A stretch of DNA of 64,000 bases from NCBI RefSeq assembly GCF_014642855.1, contig NZ_BMJB01000001.1, positions 1,364,001 to 1,428,000 of the forward strand, in the 5' to 3' direction. Positions 8,846 through 18,366 of this stretch are shown here, piece by piece. The position numbers were made by a program, and so were the translations under genes. Each line of letters opens with the position of its first letter. Position 1 is the stretch's first letter. The notes below the pieces were generated by a model. The model was given only the letters and a program-made list of their open reading frames with translations, was not told the origin of the DNA and searched no databases. Source of the DNA: Edaphobacter acidisoli. GTDB taxonomy: Bacteria > Acidobacteriota > Terriglobia > Terriglobales > Acidobacteriaceae.

Positions 8846-8943
8846 AAACGGCGATTGAATGAGGGATGGCGCACCAGCGACATCCCTCATCATTCCTTAT
8901 CGCAGACAACCGCGCGAGCAATGTTCTACACTCACGCACAAAC

Positions 8944-9630
8944 ATGAAGACCGTTCAATCACTTGCACTCACCGCACTCCTCGCACTCACGATCACCGCA
9001 TGCAAGAGCACTCAGCCCTCCCCGCAAGCTACAAGTCAGCACACATATAGCGCGGCGTCCTCCACCGAAGAGACAGCACCTACCTCACAACAAAACTTCG
9101 ACTACTATCTACTCAATCTCTCCTGGTCGCCCGAGTTCTGCTACTCGCACCCCAATGCCGTCGAGTGCTCCCAGCACGCCACCTTCGTCCTGCACGGCCT
9201 CTGGCCGCAAAACACCAGCGGAGGCTACCCGCAAGACTGCTCCGACGCCCCCGGCCCGCGCAATCCCTCGCAATACTCCGACATCTATCCCGACCCCGGA
9301 CTGCTCCAGCACGAGTGGCGCACCCACGGCACCTGCTCCGGCCTCGCCCCCGATGCCTTCTTCTCTCTCGCTCGCCAGGCCGTCCACTCTGTAGCCATCC
9401 CTGCCGAGCTCACATCGCTCGATCACCAGATCTCGATGCCGCCCGCAGACATCCTCAACCTCTTCACCCAGGCCAACCCATCCATTCCTGCCAGTAGTCT
9501 CGTCCTCAGCTGCGGCCATAACTTCCTCACGGCCGTCGAAGTCTGCTTCAGCAAATCGCTCCAGCCCATCGCCTGCGGCCCTGTCCGTTCCTGCCGCGCC
9601 AACACGGTCCGCATCCCGCCTCCGCGATAA
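8944..9630 (+). CDS. Ribonuclease T2 family lipoprotein
   Basis: The mature part carries both RNase T2 active-site blocks, HGLWPQ (CAS I) and EWRTHGTC (CAS II), each with its catalytic His. RNase T2 enzymes are secreted endoribonucleases that cut RNA via a 2',3'-cyclic phosphate. I place the start at ATG 8944 because it opens a clean lipoprotein signal, with the lipobox ending LTITAC, whereas the 26 codons upstream are not signal-like. That gives 228 residues. Cysteines that could form disulfides are present. A TACACT hexamer at 8927-8932 may be its -10. The orphan PstS gene follows, which fits a role in scavenging phosphate from RNA. Confidence 0.9.
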   Translation: MKTVQSLALTALLALTITACKSTQPSPQATSQHTYSAASSTEETAPTSQQNFDYYLLNLSWSPEFCYSHPNAVECSQHATFVLHGLWPQNTSGGYPQDCSDAPGPRNPSQYSDIYPDPGLLQHEWRTHGTCSGLAPDAFFSLARQAVHSVAIPAELTSLDHQISMPPADILNLFTQANPSIPASSLVLSCGHNFLTAVEVCFSKSLQPIACGPVRSCRANTVRIPPPR

Positions 9631-9771: not shown

Positions 9772-10854
9772 ATGCAGACCAACGCCAGCCGGCCCGCGAA
9801 GATGCTTGCCGTCCTTACCGCAGTTGCCCTGACCACCGTCCTTACTGCCTGCAAATCCAGCAGCGGCCCATCCACCGAGAACGTTACGCTCAATGGCGGA
9901 GGCAGCACCTTCGTCAATCCGGTTATGTCGCGCTGGACACATGACTTTGCAGCTGCCCACACCGGCACGCAGATTAACTACCAGTCCATCGGTTCCGGGG
10001 GCGGTGTTCAGCAGGTCAAAGCCGGTACAGTCGACTTCGGCGCTTCGGACTACCCGCTGACCGACGCCAACCTCGCTGAGATGAAGCCTATGCTGCAGAT
10101 CCCCGAGACCGCAGGCCCCGTCTGCATCACCTACAACCTCCCCGGCCTCACCAAGCCGCTCCAGCTTTCGGCTGAAGCCATCTCCGGCATCTTCCTAGGC
10201 AAAATCACCAGCTGGCAGGATCCCATCCTGAAGAAGGACAACCCCGGCGTCGCCCTCCCCAATATCAAAGTCGTCGTTGCCCACCGCACCGACGGCTCCG
10301 GCACCACCGCCGCTTTCACCACCTACCTCTCGGCCGTCTCGCCTGAGTGGTCCACGAAGGTCGGCAAAGGCGGAGCGGTCTCCTGGCCCGTCGGCCTCGG
10401 CGGCAAAGGCTCCGAAGGCGTCACCGCGCAGGTTCGCCAGTCCCCTGGCGGCATCGGCTATGTTGAGCTGATCTACGCGCAGCAGAACAACCTCGCAGTC
10501 GCCAACGTCCGTAACCAGGCCGGCAACTACATCACGCCCAGCACGGCCAGCACAACCGCAGCCATCGCGGCCTTCGCCGATCAGCTCAACAAAGACCCGC
10601 GCGTGCCCATCGTCAACGCTCCCGCCTCCGCGCCCGAAGCCTACCCCATCTCGACCCTGACCTTCCTCATCATCCCGAAGGACGGCACAGACGTGGGCAA
10701 GCGCACGATGCTGAAGAAGTTCATCCAGTACATCGTCACCGACGGACAGCTCATCGCATCCCAGCTCAACTACGCTCCACTCCCCGACGGGGTGAAGCAG
10801 TATGACCAGCAGCAGCTCAGCCAGATGACCGTCAACGGTCAGCCGGTACAGTAA
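9772..10854 (+). CDS. pstS: Phosphate ABC transporter substrate-binding lipoprotein PstS
   Basis: This 360-residue protein is a PstS-type phosphate binder. It has a lipoprotein signal (VLTAC), the phosphate-loop GGGSTFVNP, the GSGGGVQQV turn, DFGASD, and the second phosphate loop HRTDGSGTT. A GGAGG ribosome-binding site precedes ATG 9772. No pstC, pstA, pstB or phoU gene is beside it, so it must work with permease components encoded elsewhere or serve as an extra binding protein. A long inverted repeat with a T-rich tail lies just downstream and probably ends transcription. Confidence 0.93.
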   Translation: MQTNASRPAKMLAVLTAVALTTVLTACKSSSGPSTENVTLNGGGSTFVNPVMSRWTHDFAAAHTGTQINYQSIGSGGGVQQVKAGTVDFGASDYPLTDANLAEMKPMLQIPETAGPVCITYNLPGLTKPLQLSAEAISGIFLGKITSWQDPILKKDNPGVALPNIKVVVAHRTDGSGTTAAFTTYLSAVSPEWSTKVGKGGAVSWPVGLGGKGSEGVTAQVRQSPGGIGYVELIYAQQNNLAVANVRNQAGNYITPSTASTTAAIAAFADQLNKDPRVPIVNAPASAPEAYPISTLTFLIIPKDGTDVGKRTMLKKFIQYIVTDGQLIASQLNYAPLPDGVKQYDQQQLSQMTVNGQPVQ

Positions 10855-10953: not shown

Positions 10954-11748
10954 TCAGTCATCCCACCGCATCTGCCAAAGATGCTCCACCGGTCCGCGCC
11001 CCTTCCCCATTGCATGCGCGGCGCGCAACGCACCCGTCACATACTCTTTCGCGCTGCGTGGAGCATCTGCATCGCCCCGCACCAGTCCGCACAGCAACGC
11101 GCTCGAAAGCGCGCACCCGGTCCCATGGGTCGAACTGGTCTCCACATGCTCGCCGGACAGCCAGCGCATCCTGCCATCTGCCGTCATCACAAAATCGTCC
11201 GGCACCGCGAGATGCCCGCCCGTAGCCATCACGCTCAACCCGCGCACAGCCCGTTGCAACGCCCGCGCCGCCTCCGGTACATCGTCGCGCTCGGCAACAC
11301 GTCTGCCGGAGAGCATCGCAAGCTCATCCAGATTCGGAGTCACCCAATCCACCAGCGGCAACAGCCGCTCACGCATCAACGCGACGCCATCGGCCTCCAA
11401 CAGCTCTCTGCCCGAACTCGACCGCAGCACCGGGTCCAGCACAACCGCAACACCCGTCCTGCGAACGCGCTCCAGAAAATCCGCGACAGCCACTACATTC
11501 GCCGCCGTCGCCAGCATCCCAATCTTGATCCCTGCCGCAGGCAGATCGTCCCACAGGCAATCCAGCGTCTCCCGCACCACCTCGGCCTTGACCGGATGCA
11601 TACCGCGCACCCCCACAGTAGACTGCACCGTCAACCCTGTAATGCAAGAAGTCCCAAACAACCCATGCGCGCGAAACACCATCAGGTCCGCCGTAATTCC
11701 AGCACCCGACGAGGGATCAAACCCCGCAATCGTCAAAACCGTCTTCAT
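10954..11748 (-). CDS. thiD: Hydroxymethylpyrimidine/phosphomethylpyrimidine kinase
   Basis: ThiD phosphorylates HMP and then HMP-P in thiamine biosynthesis. The start MKTVLTIAGFDPSSGAG is the family's N-terminal signature, and the C-terminal HGTGCALSSALL is the ATP/anion-hole motif of this ribokinase-fold enzyme. Start ATG 11748 gives 264 residues; a GTG 15 bases further upstream would add five residues of no family value. GATAAT lies 7 bases before the ATG, suggesting a leaderless mRNA. No other thi gene and no obvious TPP riboswitch are adjacent. Confidence 0.93.
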   Translation of the reverse strand: MKTVLTIAGFDPSSGAGITADLMVFRAHGLFGTSCITGLTVQSTVGVRGMHPVKAEVVRETLDCLWDDLPAAGIKIGMLATAANVVAVADFLERVRRTGVAVVLDPVLRSSSGRELLEADGVALMRERLLPLVDWVTPNLDELAMLSGRRVAERDDVPEAARALQRAVRGLSVMATGGHLAVPDDFVMTADGRMRWLSGEHVETSSTHGTGCALSSALLCGLVRGDADAPRSAKEYVTGALRAAHAMGKGRGPVEHLWQMRWDD

Positions 11749-11755
11749 CCACTCG

Positions 11756-11761
11756 ATTATC
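11756..11761 (-). promoter_or_regulatory. -10 element for leaderless thiD
   Basis: On the minus strand GATAAT is separated by 7 bases from the thiD ATG at 11748, with no ribosome-binding site in between. Confidence 0.45.
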
Positions 11762-11792
11762 ACCCACTCGCAAACACGTCTCCCCTATGTCG

Positions 11793-11898: not shown

Positions 11899-12621
11899 GT
11901 GACCTCAAGATTCGACCCCAAAGACCACCTCATCGTAGCCCTCGACTTCCCCGATGCCCGCCAGGCCCTCGATCTCGTCGACTCACTCGGCGACGCCTGC
12001 CAGTGGTTCAAGGTCGGCCTCGAACTCTACTTCGCCGCCGGCAACCGCCTCATCGAAGACCTCCGCAACCGCGGCTTCGACGTCTTCCTCGACCTCAAGC
12101 TCCACGACATCCCCAACACCGTCGCCAGCGCCGTCCGCACCGCCACCGCCGCAGGAGCATCGCTGCTGACCATCCACGCCTGCGGAGGCGCCGCCATGAT
12201 GACCGCTGCCGCTCAGGCAGCCACTGCGCCCGGCTCGCCGCGCCTGCTCGCCGTCACCGTTCTCACCAGCATGGACTCGGTCGAGCTCGCCGGCATAGGC
12301 ATCCCGGACACTCCCGCCGTGCAAGCACTCCGCCTGGCCAAACTCGCCCACTCGTGCGGCATCGACGGCATGGTCTGCTCACCTGAAGAAGTCGCCACCC
12401 TGCGCTCCGAACTCGGCCAGGACGCCCTGCTCGTCATCCCTGGTATCCGCCCCGCAGGAGCAGCCCTGAACGACCAGAAACGCGTCGCTACGCCCGAATC
12501 AGCCATGGCCGCAGGAGCATCCATGCTCGTCGTCGGCCGTCCCATCACCCGCGCCGCCAGCCCCATTCGGGCCGCCCGCGCCATCCTCGACGAGATCACC
12601 GCCGGAGCACCCACAACGTGA
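11899..12621 (+). CDS. pyrF: Orotidine 5'-phosphate decarboxylase
   Basis: PyrF makes UMP from OMP in the last step of de novo pyrimidine synthesis. The catalytic block DLKLHDIPNT, with its Asp-Lys-x-x-Asp array, is intact, and the phosphate-binding end VVGRPITRA is present. The 240-residue length is usual for the short-type enzyme. The start is GTG 11899, with a TAAACT element 6 bases upstream and no ribosome-binding site. It is monocistronic and ends in an inverted repeat shared with the convergent gene. Confidence 0.95.
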   Translation: MTSRFDPKDHLIVALDFPDARQALDLVDSLGDACQWFKVGLELYFAAGNRLIEDLRNRGFDVFLDLKLHDIPNTVASAVRTATAAGASLLTIHACGGAAMMTAAAQAATAPGSPRLLAVTVLTSMDSVELAGIGIPDTPAVQALRLAKLAHSCGIDGMVCSPEEVATLRSELGQDALLVIPGIRPAGAALNDQKRVATPESAMAAGASMLVVGRPITRAASPIRAARAILDEITAGAPTT

Positions 12622-12705: not shown

Positions 12706-13620
12706 CTACTGCCTGTTCCCGACGTTCTGCTTCTCCGCCACGACATTGCTGTCGCTCAGACGCAGCGCCAGCGCCTTGGCCGATCCTCCGCTCTGCTGAA
12801 ACTCGCTCAGGTCCAACTCAGCCACATCGTAGCCAAGACGCCTCAGCCGACTAGCCAGGTCCGTCCCGACCTTGCCCATCAGGATGCGGTCGCCAATGTT
12901 GATCACGTTGCAGGCAAACTGCGTCGCCTCGTGCTCATTGACCACAATGCGCTTCTCCGCCGGATACGCCGCCTCAATCTTCTTGATCGAAGCCGCGTCA
13001 AACGCCTCCGCGAAGTACATCACATGCCCCAGGCCCAACGGCGCAAAGCACATATCCAGATGGAAGAACCTCGGGTCCATCAGGTGCAGCGAAGTCACGC
13101 CAACATGCCACGCATCTGCAACATGCTTATGGCTCTGCTTGCACGTCCTGACGCCATGCGCAGCCCAAAGATGCTGCCCCTTCTCGTCAAAAAGCGCATC
13201 GCCTTCGCCCTCGAAGGAAGTCTCCCGCGGCGTCTCCCACAGCAGGAAGCCAGCATCCTGCAACCACTTACGCAGATGCTGTTCCTCGGGCTCGCGCTGC
13301 TTGTGCGCAAAGCTCGAAATGGCTGCGACCCCATGCTGCACCAGCGCCGCGTGGGCCACAAACACCATGTCAGGCGACCCCTTCCGAGCCGGCAACAGCC
13401 GCACGTCAGCGATCTGCTGTAGATGCTGATACAGGTTCTTCCACTGCGCAAACACCACATCGCGCGCAGGCTGATGAAGATTTCCCGCCATCCAGGGGTT
13501 AATGACGTAGTTAACGTCATACCACTCCGGAGGACACATCAGGTAGGTTGGTTTGTCGAAATGGGGAAGTGGAGCAAAGGTTGAAGCGAGGGAAGAAGCT
13601 GTACTGCAGGTGGTATTCAT
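12706..13620 (-). CDS. Amidinotransferase/DDAH-fold protein lacking the usual catalytic Cys
   Basis: The 304-residue protein has the guanidine-group-modifying fold of arginine/dimethylarginine hydrolases and amidinotransferases. Motifs include PDMVFVAHAAL, FEGEGDALF and FFHLDMCFAPLG (with the catalytic His). The C-terminal block that is normally SGG-x-x-KC-L/M-T-LR reads SGGSAKALALRL (residues 277-288), so Ala 283 stands where the nucleophilic Cys is expected. The codon is plainly GCG. Start ATG 13620 is preceded by an AGGAAA sequence; 15 codons upstream have no family value. The fold call is good; loss of the standard activity is inference. Confidence 0.8.
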   Translation of the reverse strand: MNTTCSTASSLASTFAPLPHFDKPTYLMCPPEWYDVNYVINPWMAGNLHQPARDVVFAQWKNLYQHLQQIADVRLLPARKGSPDMVFVAHAALVQHGVAAISSFAHKQREPEEQHLRKWLQDAGFLLWETPRETSFEGEGDALFDEKGQHLWAAHGVRTCKQSHKHVADAWHVGVTSLHLMDPRFFHLDMCFAPLGLGHVMYFAEAFDAASIKKIEAAYPAEKRIVVNEHEATQFACNVINIGDRILMGKVGTDLASRLRRLGYDVAELDLSEFQQSGGSAKALALRLSDSNVVAEKQNVGNRQ

Positions 13621-13773
13621 AAAAGCCGTTTTCCTACTTTCCGGTCTAGAGTCTGCCCCTCCCAATAGGCCTTAGTCAAGTCCGGCACTAATGATTTTCT
13701 GTACAACTTTGGTTCGGCCTACCACATTCGGAATACAGTTGACAACCGCATGAAAACCAAATGAATTGCCAGC

Positions 13774-13875: not shown

Positions 13876-14055
13876 TTACAGCTTCTCGTAAAAATCACAA
13901 GCCGAGCACGAGATATACACCCCACCCGGAACACCGCGCTCGCGGTCCTTCACGCGCTTGACGATGCGCGTCGGCTTGGAGCACTTCGGACAATCCGTGC
14001 TCTTCTGCGTATCCATGACTTTCTTGCGGTCACCAGTCTTGGCAATCTTTGCCAT
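13876..14055 (-). CDS. Small four-cysteine zinc-ribbon protein
   Basis: This 59-residue frame starts at ATG 14055 behind a GAGATGAGGGA ribosome-binding site. It has a basic N-terminus (MAKIAKTGDRKK) and two CxxC pairs, CPKC (22-25) and CSAC (50-53), as in zinc ribbons. It ends FYEKL. The pattern resembles small ribosome- or nucleic-acid-associated zinc-ribbon proteins, but I do not recognise a named family. The terminator just downstream supports it being a real, independently transcribed gene. Confidence 0.75.
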   Translation of the reverse strand: MAKIAKTGDRKKVMDTQKSTDCPKCSKPTRIVKRVKDRERGVPGGVYISCSACDFYEKL

Positions 14056-14272
14056 AATCCCTCATCTCCCTGTTTCAGATAGTGCGGCCCGTGCGCGCGA
14101 ATCGAACTTCTCAAGGGTTGTCGCGGAAAGCCACAACGAAACCACGGCGAGAAAGACTGCGATTGAGAGCCTCTTAACAGTCTACACGACCACAGCCCTG
14201 AGGGGTACGCTGCCTGCATGTGCGGAAAAGCCCCCATGCAGCCACCTGCCTGTTCATGAGAAAATCCCTCAC

Positions 14273-14470
14273 ATGAACGACTTCATCCCCAAAGCTCCCA
14301 CGCAAAAGATCGGCGGACTCGGCCCCAAGGCGGCCCGGCTCCAGGCCCTGCGCGAAAAAGCCGCCAAGCTCAACGACTCGGCCAAGAGTACCCACGCCGA
14401 CTCCGGGCCTTCAGCCAAGGCCAGCAAGGCCCCTGCAAAGAAGACCGCATTCCAGCGCAAAGCCACCTAG
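14273..14470 (+). CDS. Small basic Ala/Lys-rich hypothetical protein
   Basis: A 65-residue frame beginning MNDFIPKAPTQKIGG with a low-complexity, Lys/Ala/Ser-rich second half. It is predicted to be mostly helical then disordered. Only a weak TGAGAAAA sequence stands before the ATG. There is no recognised domain, and the frame continues open upstream, so the call rests on position between genes and a plausible start. It may be a nucleic-acid-associated small protein, or not a gene. Confidence 0.4.
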   Translation: MNDFIPKAPTQKIGGLGPKAARLQALREKAAKLNDSAKSTHADSGPSAKASKAPAKKTAFQRKAT

Positions 14471-14502
14471 CCGCAAGTCCGGCTTGTAGCAAATCATGAA
14501 TC

Positions 14503-14547
14503 CGGGTGCCCCATCTTCGCGGCAGTTTATCGCCGCTAAGGTGGGGT
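14503..14547. repeat. GGGTGCCCCA hairpin repeat, copy 1
   Basis: GGGTGCCCCATC is followed by a GCGG...CCGC stem that closes with GGTGGGG. Related elements lie at 24019, 29386, 29459 and 54588. Confidence 0.6.
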
Positions 14548-14565
14548 TCTTATCAGGCCACAAGC

Positions 14566-14976
14566 CTACCGCCAGCTCACCGCCAGGTGCCATCGCAGGT
14601 CCCGCGCCCTGGTCTTCTCCAGCACCACCGCATACTCCATCAGCTCCGCGAGCACCTGTTCTCCCTCGCTCCCCAACTGCTGCGGCTCATGCTGCAAGGT
14701 GTCCACCAGCGCCAGCACCGTCCTTAACCCGTCCGCGGGGGAATACCACTGCGGCGGAGGCAGCCGGCGAATCAGGTCCTTGTCTCCCGCACCTTCTTCA
14801 ATCAGCAGCGACATCGAGTTCTCATCTGCCGAAAAGAACTCAATCAGCGGCTTCACCCCTAGCTTAAGCGCCAGCCGTTCCAGCGCATCCTCATGCCGCG
14901 CCATCGAGCGCCCATTCACAAAAATATCGAACCCAGGGTCATCACCCTCAACCACGATGTACATCGAAGCAGCCAT
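14566..14976 (-). CDS. Conserved-looking hypothetical protein (136 aa)
   Basis: The protein begins MAASMYIVVEGDDPGFD and is acidic, with no signal peptide or membrane segment. It contains no motif I can assign. The ATG at 14976 is 7 bases downstream of TAAACT on the same strand, matching the leaderless pattern seen at other genes here, and supports this start over one 25 codons upstream. It lies 40 bases after the membrane-protein gene on the same strand but probably has its own promoter. Confidence 0.65.
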   Translation of the reverse strand: MAASMYIVVEGDDPGFDIFVNGRSMARHEDALERLALKLGVKPLIEFFSADENSMSLLIEEGAGDKDLIRRLPPPQWYSPADGLRTVLALVDTLQHEPQQLGSEGEQVLAELMEYAVVLEKTRARDLRWHLAVSWR

Positions 14977-14983
14977 GACTGAA

Positions 14984-14989
14984 AGTTTA
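14984..14989 (-). promoter_or_regulatory. -10 element for leaderless hypothetical gene
   Basis: TAAACT on the minus strand lies 7 bases before ATG 14976; no ribosome-binding site is seen. Confidence 0.45.
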
Positions 14990-15016
14990 TCCCCACCACA
15001 CGGATCGGAAAAAGTA

Positions 15017-15883
15017 TCAGCGCAGAGACAGGACCTCGCTTTTGTCATCACACCGCAACATCAACAGCAGCGCGGCGCCGCATGTCAGCAAAGCAATTCC
15101 GCAACCCATCCTGATCGTGAATCGCGGCGTCCACAGAACAAAACCTACGGCCAGCACCAGCAAAGGGACAATCAAATAACGAGCGGCAAATCGCACGGGA
15201 CGCATCTCACGCAAAAGCCACACCGTCAGCAGCGTACTCACCGCGCCAGAAACCAATATCCACGCTCCCGGCAGGCCACCGAAGCCCTGACCGCCGTGCC
15301 CACACAGCAACAAACCCAGCCCAGGTGGAAGACACACCGCCGCAGTCGCCTCCGCAAAGCCAACACCCTGAAGAGCCTTATGCAGCCAGACACTCAAAGC
15401 AGCGATCAGCAGCACTGTGACGATCAAACCACCAAACGGAATCCAACCGGCAGTGTCCGCAGGCATTTCAAGCGGAAGCAATAACAGCAGACCACCAAGA
15501 CCGGCCAGCGAAGGAAGCAGCAACCGCATGGTGTCGTCTCGAGACAGCGATTCGATCACCACCACCGCAACCGGGATCGCGGAGAACCCTGCCACACCGA
15601 TCGTATCCGTCAGTCTCGAAGTCACCCCGGCAAAGAACAGCGCCGGAACGCCGAAGAATCCGAGCCCACCGACGGCCAGCAAGAGCCGACTGCGCCATTT
15701 CAACCTGGCGCGGCCTCCGTTCCAGATCAGCGCACAAAGACCAGCTCCGGTCCCAACAGCTGCAAGTTCCACCCCTTGGCGTCGAACGCCGCTCCATGCA
15801 TCGCCGCCTGAAAAAGCAACCAACGACGCACACGCAGAGAGCGCGCAGAGAACCGCGAATGCCAGCCAGACTCTCCAACTCAT
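15017..15883 (-). CDS. Multi-spanning membrane protein, DMT/EamA-like
   Basis: The 288-residue sequence has about nine or ten hydrophobic helices in series and short loops, consistent with a drug/metabolite-transporter-like permease of the inner membrane. The repeat-like arrangement (two halves of four to five helices) fits EamA proteins, but there is no diagnostic motif, so substrate and direction are unknown. ATG 15883 has a GATGAGG ribosome-binding sequence. Confidence 0.65.
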   Translation of the reverse strand: MSWRVWLAFAVLCALSACASLVAFSGGDAWSGVRRQGVELAAVGTGAGLCALIWNGGRARLKWRSRLLLAVGGLGFFGVPALFFAGVTSRLTDTIGVAGFSAIPVAVVVIESLSRDDTMRLLLPSLAGLGGLLLLLPLEMPADTAGWIPFGGLIVTVLLIAALSVWLHKALQGVGFAEATAAVCLPPGLGLLLCGHGGQGFGGLPGAWILVSGAVSTLLTVWLLREMRPVRFAARYLIVPLLVLAVGFVLWTPRFTIRMGCGIALLTCGAALLLMLRCDDKSEVLSLR

Positions 15884-15969
15884 CGCCTCATCCCGCTCTC
15901 CATTCCATCTACCCGCAAAGCAAAGAGGCCGCGCACCTGCGCGACCTCTTTTTCATTTATGCTACTGCC

Positions 15970-18366
15970 TTACCGGTTGCCGCCGCCCTGCGGAGCGCCC
16001 GGCCCCTTGCGGCCACGACGACGCCGTCCACCACGACGATTACCCTGACCACCCGGACGGCCTTGCCCCTGGCCCTGTCCGCCAGCCGGCACTGGAGCCT
16101 CGGCGCGGTTGAAGTTCGGCTCATCCTCGGCCTCATCTCCCTCCTCGTCGAAGTCCTCCTCGTCCTCGCCGTCGACTTCCTCTGCATCAGCCGCGTGTCC
16201 GCCACGCGTCTGCGGAGCAGCCTCCGCGCCATTGCCATTCGGAGCAGCCGCACCAACTTCCGGCAACCCAAGCTTGGCTCGCTGCTCACGCAACACTGCC
16301 TTGCGCGACAGCTTGATGCGGTTGCCTTCAATCGCCAGCACCTTCACCAGAATCTGATCGCCCTCGCGCAGTTCGTCCTTCACTTCCTTCACGCGATGCT
16401 CTGCAATCTCCGAGACGTGCAGCAAGCCATCGGTACCGGGGAAGATCTCAACAAACGCACCGAACTCCGCAATCCGCACTACCTTACCGAGGTAGGTCTT
16501 CCCAACCTCAGGCACAGCCGTGATGTCGCCTATCATCTGCAGCGCGCGCGCCAGACCATCCGCATCGCTCGAAGCCACATTCACGCGGCCCGTATCGTCC
16601 ACGTCGATCTTTACGCCCGTCGCATCGATGATTCCGCGAATCACCTTGCCGCCCGGCCCGATCAGATCGCGAATCTTATCCGTCGGAATCTGTAGCGTAT
16701 GAATCCGCGGAGCAAACTGCGACTTCTCCTTGCTCGCACCCGCGATCACCGCATCCATCTTGTCCAGCAGGAATAGCCGTCCCTTGCGCGCCTGCTCCAG
16801 CGCCTCGCGCATAATCTGCGGCGTAATCCCCATGATCTTGATGTCCATCTGGAGCGCCGTAATCCCATTGCGCGTACCGGCAACCTTGAAGTCCATGTCC
16901 CCGTAGTGATCTTCCGCACCAGCAATATCGGTCAGAACAGCGTACTTGTCGCCCTCCTTCACCAACCCCATCGCCACGCCGGCAACCGAGCCCTTCAGCT
17001 CAATGCCCGCCTGCATCAGCGACAGCGACGCACCGCACACCGTCGCCATCGACGACGACCCATTCGACTCCAGAATGTCCGACACCACCCGCAGCGTATA
17101 CGGAGACTGCGTCTCATCAGGCAGCACCGCCTCAATCGCCCGCGAAGCCAGCGCACCGTGTCCAATCTCGCGGCGACCCACGCCGCTCATCCTGCCCACT
17201 TCACCCACCGAGAACGGCGGGAAGTTGTAGTGCAGCATGAACCGTCGCTTGACCTCGCCCTCGTAGCTCTCCAGCCGCTGCGCATCGTCCGTCGTGCCCA
17301 GCGTGGCCGATACCAGCGCCTGCGTCTCGCCACGTGTAAACACCGCCGACCCGTGCACTCGCGGCAGCACGCCTACTTCAATCGAGATCGGACGAATCTC
17401 ATCGAACGCGCGATGATCCGGACGAATCCGCTCATTCAGCACCTGCTCGCGGAAGATGTTCTCGCGCAGAATCTCGTAGTACTTGCCAAGCTTCTTGAGC
17501 GCGGCCGTGTCCTCCGGCGCAATCTCCGCCTTCAGCTCGTCCTTCAGCTCCTTCACCTTCGCGTAGCTCTCAAACTTCGGATGCTTCTTCGTATCCAGCG
17601 CATCCTTCAGCCGCGCGCCAATCTTCGCAGTCAGAGCGGCCAGATATTCCTTATCGATCTCGACCGCCGTCACCAGCCGCTTCTGCTTGCCCGCGCGCGC
17701 AACCAGGTCTTCAATCGCTACACAGATCTTTTTGATCTCCGTGTGCGCAAACTCAATCGCGTCCACCACGCGCTCTTCAGCCACTTCATTCGCGCCCGAC
17801 TCAATCATCACAATGCCGTCCTTCGTGCCGACGACCATGATGTTCAGCTTGCTCTTCGCACGCTCCGTATATGTCGGGTTCACGATGAACTGGTCATCGA
17901 CCAATCCAATCCGCACCGCGCCCACCGGCCCGTGGAACGGGATATCGCTCAGCGCCAGCGCGCAGCTCGCGCCGTTGATGCCCAGCACATCGGGGTCATT
18001 CTCCTTGTCCGCCGAGTACACAAACGCAACCACCTGCGTCTCATTGCGGAACGCCTCCGGAAACAGCGGACGAATCGGGCGATCGATCTGACGGCTCGTC
18101 AGGATCTCCTTCTCGCTCGGCCTTCCCTCACGCTTGATGAACCCGCCCGGAATGCGTCCACCCGCATAGGTGAACTCGCGGTACTCCACGGTCAGCGGGA
18201 AGAAGTCGATGCCTTCCTTCGGCTCAGGCGAAGCCACAGCCGTCGAAAGCACCACATTGTCGCCGCTCGAAACCAGCGCTGCGCCGGAGGCCTGCTTGGC
18301 CAACCGTCCCGTCTCAAATTTAATCTGCCTGCCACCAGCAAGCTCTACTGTCACGTCCTGTTTCAT
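15970..18366 (-). CDS. pnp: Polynucleotide phosphorylase with acidic and Arg/Gly-rich tail
   Basis: PNPase is the trimeric 3'-5' phosphorolytic exoribonuclease of the RNA degradosome. The 798 residues contain two RNase PH-like cores, a KH domain (GPGGKVIRGI) and an S1 domain (VGKTYLGKVVRIAEFGAFVE). The core ends near residue 700; the remaining roughly 90 residues are an acidic block (VDGEDEEDFDEEGDEAEDE) followed by a Gln/Gly/Arg-rich tail with RRGGRRRRGRKG. This tail goes beyond the usual length and may bind RNA or partner proteins. rpsO lies upstream on the same strand, as in many bacteria, separated by a terminator-like hairpin. Confidence 0.95.
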   Translation of the reverse strand: MKQDVTVELAGGRQIKFETGRLAKQASGAALVSSGDNVVLSTAVASPEPKEGIDFFPLTVEYREFTYAGGRIPGGFIKREGRPSEKEILTSRQIDRPIRPLFPEAFRNETQVVAFVYSADKENDPDVLGINGASCALALSDIPFHGPVGAVRIGLVDDQFIVNPTYTERAKSKLNIMVVGTKDGIVMIESGANEVAEERVVDAIEFAHTEIKKICVAIEDLVARAGKQKRLVTAVEIDKEYLAALTAKIGARLKDALDTKKHPKFESYAKVKELKDELKAEIAPEDTAALKKLGKYYEILRENIFREQVLNERIRPDHRAFDEIRPISIEVGVLPRVHGSAVFTRGETQALVSATLGTTDDAQRLESYEGEVKRRFMLHYNFPPFSVGEVGRMSGVGRREIGHGALASRAIEAVLPDETQSPYTLRVVSDILESNGSSSMATVCGASLSLMQAGIELKGSVAGVAMGLVKEGDKYAVLTDIAGAEDHYGDMDFKVAGTRNGITALQMDIKIMGITPQIMREALEQARKGRLFLLDKMDAVIAGASKEKSQFAPRIHTLQIPTDKIRDLIGPGGKVIRGIIDATGVKIDVDDTGRVNVASSDADGLARALQMIGDITAVPEVGKTYLGKVVRIAEFGAFVEIFPGTDGLLHVSEIAEHRVKEVKDELREGDQILVKVLAIEGNRIKLSRKAVLREQRAKLGLPEVGAAAPNGNGAEAAPQTRGGHAADAEEVDGEDEEDFDEEGDEAEDEPNFNRAEAPVPAGGQGQGQGRPGGQGNRRGGRRRRGRKGPGAPQGGGNR

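Follow-up and report, generated by a model that had tools for sequence, protein, structure and literature searches.

The gene and its neighbourhood

We report the analysis of a gene of Edaphobacter acidisoli whose product resembles arginine dihydrolase and lacks the nucleophilic cysteine, together with the stretch of 64,000 nucleotides in which it lies (the window). An earlier reading made from the letters of the DNA (the sequence-only reading) had delimited the gene correctly, to which we add that it is encoded on the minus strand (Table 1). The 304-residue protein matches the NCBIfam profiles NF052231 (8e-94) and NF052232 (4e-92) below their curated cut-offs, its NF052232 score being 308 bits against a cut-off of 450, under which the paralogues that retain the cysteine (at most 392 bits) likewise fall. 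A Pfam match to DDAH_eukar (2.8e-8) was also found, and among proteins of solved structure the best relatives were Sll1336 (ArgZ; 272 bits in a search of PDB sequences) and Alr4995 (AgrE). These are two-domain proteins, whereas the present one has a single domain without the ornithine cyclodeaminase part, and no separate ornithine cyclodeaminase (PF02423) was found in the same genome.

Table 1. Features of the gene, its encoded active site and its surroundings, in positions of the window
Feature	Position	Strand	Remarks
Cys-less arginine-dihydrolase-like CDS	12706..13620	-	304 aa; ATG at 13620, stop 12708-12706
Ala283, codon GCG	12772..12774	-	at ArgZ nucleophile Cys264; orthologues 41 Ser, 15 Ala
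His187 (ArgZ His168)	13060..13062	-	retained catalytic base; invariant 84/84
Arg158 (ArgZ Arg139)	13147..13149	-	retained in alignment; carboxylate-binding Arg in superfamily
Glu137 (ArgZ Glu118)	13210..13212	-	retained partner of base; invariant 84/84
Arg109 (ArgZ Arg90)	13294..13296	-	retained in alignment; carboxylate-binding Arg in superfamily
His90	13351..13353	-	at ArgZ Asn71; His 56/56 in clade, Asn 28/28 in Cys-type relatives
Conserved upstream footprint	13637..13713	-	cross-genome comparison; only before Cys-less gene in genomes scanned
CAGACT	13650-13655	-	then GGAAAGTAGGAA ahead of ATG
TTGACT, -35-like	13674-13679	-	then 18-bp spacer
Upstream box ACCAAAGTTGTACA	13700-13713	-	part of footprint
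Zinc-ribbon protein, 59 aa, upstream	13876..14055	-	synteny conserved
pyrF, convergent neighbour	11899..12621	+	synteny conserved
thiD-type kinase	10954..11763	-	synteny conserved

The names of neighbouring genes were read by eye from their sequences. In most of the genomes read from Edaphobacter and its sister genus, g80, the order runs dnaE, accA, two further genes, the zinc-ribbon gene and the Cys-less gene, and continues with pyrF (in Edaphobacter), thiD, thiS and thiG. The upstream side is rearranged in the window (13876-18366): beyond the zinc ribbon come pnp and two unknown genes in place of the accA and dnaE of relatives. Two related genera carry genes that retain the cysteine in a matching neighbourhood (L065, 6995-7924, and L066, 7142-8017), with pyrF and thiD present beside the former and the contig of the latter covering the accA side only; the Cys-less gene therefore probably holds the ancestral locus, and a Cys-type gene at this locus is the likely ancestral state. 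Further along the window, a plus-strand gene for a lipoprotein-like product that reads by eye like a T2-type ribonuclease (8866-9630) stands beside one that reads as a PstS-like phosphate-binding protein (9772-10854).

Ahead of the start codon, the promoter-like pattern CTTGACGA, about 18 bp, AGACTC and TAGGA is conserved in both genera and recurs weakly before L065, and the box ACCAAAGTTGTACA occurs only in front of the Cys-less gene in the five genomes scanned. We read the conserved leader as a promoter followed by a Shine-Dalgarno sequence, and the box may be the site of a regulator. An upstream riboswitch was rejected as an explanation of the leader, there being no Rfam match in the window.

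Active-site substitutions and retained pocket residues

An AlphaFold2 model built from the alignment (pLDDT 92) predicts the five-bladed alpha/beta propeller of the penteins, with the same predicted fold as ArgZ. It is matched most closely by ArgZ and AgrE (Z 42, 1.4 A over about 271 residues), with an identity to ArgZ of about 45-46% by structural alignment, followed by DDAH (Z about 28-30), ADI (Z 28), further penteins and RESC5. The alignment to ArgZ runs at an offset of exactly 19, so that Ala283, in the C-terminal block SGGSAKALALRLSD, falls on Cys264 and His90, in the first motif PDMVFVAHAALV, falls on Asn71, which we take to be the guanidine-facing residue of that enzyme.

We aligned 84 sequences, made up of 56 distinct orthologues without the cysteine and 28 Cys-type relatives of the family. 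The absence of the nucleophile, the central claim of the sequence-only reading, proved to be a property of the whole clade: that reading would have been overturned by orthologues all carrying Cys at position 283, and none does, the residue being Ala or Ser throughout. All 28 Cys-type relatives retain both Asn and Cys, in TANA(G/A) and AKC motifs. The same split was seen at a handful of further orthologue loci, and more distant Acidobacteriota relatives retain the Cys. The two alanines of the C-terminal block had been identified correctly, but the Thr supposed to be usual at the second of them, residue 285, was not found, since the close relatives have Val there (25 of 28) and Ala285 is consequently not diagnostic. 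The altered first motif had only been touched upon; the change from Asn to His within it is, as judged from the alignment, a sharper difference than Ala285 and as telling as the loss of the Cys.

The remainder of the pocket is preserved, as had been claimed for its His and acidic residues. Of the features that mark an arginine dihydrolase, the catalytic base and the carboxylate clamp (H187 with E137, and R109 with R158) are invariant, while Cys264 and Asn71 are replaced in every orthologue; the Cys-His-Glu triad of DDAH is likewise without its Cys. The carboxylate-binding role of the Arg pair is established for DDAH and ADI (PMC11659421, PMC9980740). The Cys-type genes have 106 conserved columns; the Cys-less clade fully keeps 48 of them, including all eight cradle and base residues (N41, D84, R109, E137, D141, R158, H187 and D189), an enrichment with a hypergeometric probability of 0.001 for a residue set of our own choosing. 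In five columns (88, 90, 116, 277 and 283) the residue is wholly replaced, and four of these (T88, N90, A277 and C283) lie in the two catalytic loops that bear Asn71 and Cys264 in ArgZ. From this distribution of kept and replaced columns we infer that the clamp and base have been kept and the chemistry end of the pocket remodelled. One further residue, Asn238, which all Cys-type relatives conserve, has given way to Cys or Ser in 24 of the 56 orthologues.

We also considered whether a cysteine elsewhere might have taken over. The protein has Cys at residues 5, 29, 160, 191 and 237, of which C29, C191 and C237 are common to the Cys-type relatives and C5 lies in the variable N-terminus. Cys160, two residues from a carboxylate-binding Arg, is the sole clade-specific Cys near a pocket motif (55 of 56), but it is Ala in one orthologue (L044), and on the aligned sequences a relocated nucleophile appears unlikely.

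Distribution, selection and the Cys-type paralogue

Our genome samples are draws and not exhaustive. In the first draw from Edaphobacter the gene was present in 28 of 37 genomes, the host included, one of them with two copies; draws across the family (300 genomes) and the class (299 genomes) placed it in Edaphobacter and g80. The Cys-less sequences form a single clade (support 100/100) whose stem is long, at 0.6 changes per column, and this clade evolves under purifying selection, with an omega among close pairs of 0.085, against 0.11 in the Cys-type genes. The protein shows a hallmark of a pseudoenzyme, in that a clade under selection has lost a catalytic residue. When state changes were counted on a tree built without columns 90 and 283, position 90 had a single change and position 283 had seven, with Ser ancestral in the Cys-less clade. 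Because position 283 switches repeatedly between Ser and Ala, Ser is not a required nucleophile, and we reject it as a replacement for the Cys.

A pseudogene, or a sequencing error confined to one strain, would account for the missing nucleophile and for nothing else. The gene is intact in dozens of independent genomes, its omega is low, and its synteny and promoter footprint are conserved; decay or assembly error can therefore be practically dismissed, in agreement with the sequence-only reading, which had argued against simple decay.

Elsewhere in the host genome, far from the Cys-less gene and among other neighbours, lies a Cys-type paralogue (L002) of 52% identity, which would be an arginine dihydrolase. 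Many Edaphobacter genomes hold both copies, as would be expected if the Cys-less protein tuned the paralogue as a non-catalytic subunit; the sequence-only reading had listed a partner subunit among its options. The two genes are far apart, however, and in at least ten genomes of at least 98% completeness the Cys-less copy is the only gene of the family, so that an obligate partnership must be abandoned and a partner subunit of any kind appears quite improbable. Some Cys-type relatives from the sister genus and from genus g48 (L087, L088, L089, L090 and L093) lie in open frames of 709-756 amino acids, which is the size of two-domain ArgZ/AgrE; the Edaphobacter copies are single-domain.

Binding, new chemistry or scaffold

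We favour, with a probability of roughly 0.55, the interpretation that the protein is a pseudo-arginine-dihydrolase, with non-covalent binding of arginine or a related amino acid and a role as sensor, regulator or buffer. With Cys264 replaced by Ser or Ala, Asn71 replaced by His and the remaining amino-acid cradle and His-Glu base intact, no covalent alkylthiouronium intermediate should form, and for this reason the dihydrolase, deiminase and DDAH reactions would all be lost; the pocket would still hold arginine or a relative such as ornithine or citrulline, and the output would be the sensing, regulation or buffering of the bound amino acid. The binding protein that the sequence-only reading had listed among its options is thus the one we prefer, as a probable rather than an observed function. 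The N-terminal domain of ArgZ and AgrE shares the fold, the cradle residues and the His168/Glu118 base, and the natural double change resembles their laboratory mutants (C264S/A and N71S). According to the titles of their PDB entries, cysteine mutants have been solved as complexes of ArgZ C264S with substrate (6jv1), AgrE C264A with L-arginine (6lrh), ADI C406A with arginine (2a9g) and DDAH C249S with citrulline (1h70). By analogy, such binding of ligand by Cys-to-Ser/Ala mutants of relatives suggests that the Cys-less protein could bind as well. DDAH (1h70, human DDAH-1) has the same pentein fold at about 20% identity and keeps its Cys-His-Glu.

Several observations count against binding. ADI and DDAH hold the guanidino group from one side with an Asp; in the 2-nitroimidazole hydrolase NnhA, a pentein with a new substrate, this Asp is replaced by Trp149, six residues past the amine-binding position (PMC11659421). 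By the same spacing position 90 matches the Asp site, and His90 may therefore weaken guanidinium binding and may suit some other ligand better than arginine. NnhA is in other respects the reverse of the Cys-less protein, since it has lost the carboxylate-binding Arg pair and keeps its Cys, the mutations C357A and C357S abolishing its activity (PMC11659421). A natural precedent for the loss of the Cys is RESC5 (MRB11870), a kinetoplastid RNA-editing protein of Trypanosoma with about 16% identity to the Cys-less protein, in which Cys has become Ala and most binding residues are kept; this pseudo-DDAH nevertheless binds neither dimethylarginine nor citrulline (PMC9980740), and by analogy its failure to bind may serve as a warning. 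In addition, binding alone does not require the retained His-Glu base, and the drift of Asn238 to Cys or Ser, together with the lack of an operon partner or nearby regulator at the locus, would also tell against it.

The retained base could also serve new chemistry, as the sequence-only reading had allowed, His187 and Glu137 being kept beside the new, invariant His90. On such an account, His90 would act with His187, Glu137 and an Asp in Cys-independent chemistry on a guanidino, ureido or other amino acid, by general base or metal-assisted hydrolysis or transfer. The invariance of His90, which arose once on the tree, as against the shifting of the Cys site between Ser and Ala, the retention of Asp141 and Asp189 beside the base, and the long stem with its concerted change in two catalytic loops all point in this direction. 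No cofactor or pathway neighbour at the locus suggests a reaction, and the known catalytic penteins that modify guanidines rely on Cys; we therefore hold this account to be unlikely. A new class of pentein enzyme without nucleophilic Cys, in which His90, His187/Glu137 and Asp, perhaps with a metal, would act on an arginine-related substrate, is doubtful. It is similarly unlikely that the propeller surface is used and the pocket is not, as in a structural or protein-binding scaffold: eIF6 and RESC5 are non-catalytic members of the fold, and RESC5 is among the fold matches of the model, but all 56 sequences share eight unchanged pocket residues, a larger number than chance would give among conserved columns, and RESC5 has lost the base His that the Cys-less protein keeps while gaining an extra one.

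Cyanobacteria rely on arginine dihydrolase as a central enzyme of nitrogen storage and recycling. A limited literature search found no paper on the Cys-less Edaphobacter clade. Automated annotation would probably label the genes of this clade as amidinotransferase, DDAH or arginine dihydrolase, thereby predicting a reaction of which their products are probably incapable. The double active-site change has become fixed in a single clade of soil Acidobacteria that covers two genera, in a gene that is intact, selected and syntenic; with the amino-acid clamp kept and the locus apparently ancestral, it offers a clean test case for how an enzyme becomes a sensor, or else an enzyme that works without Cys.
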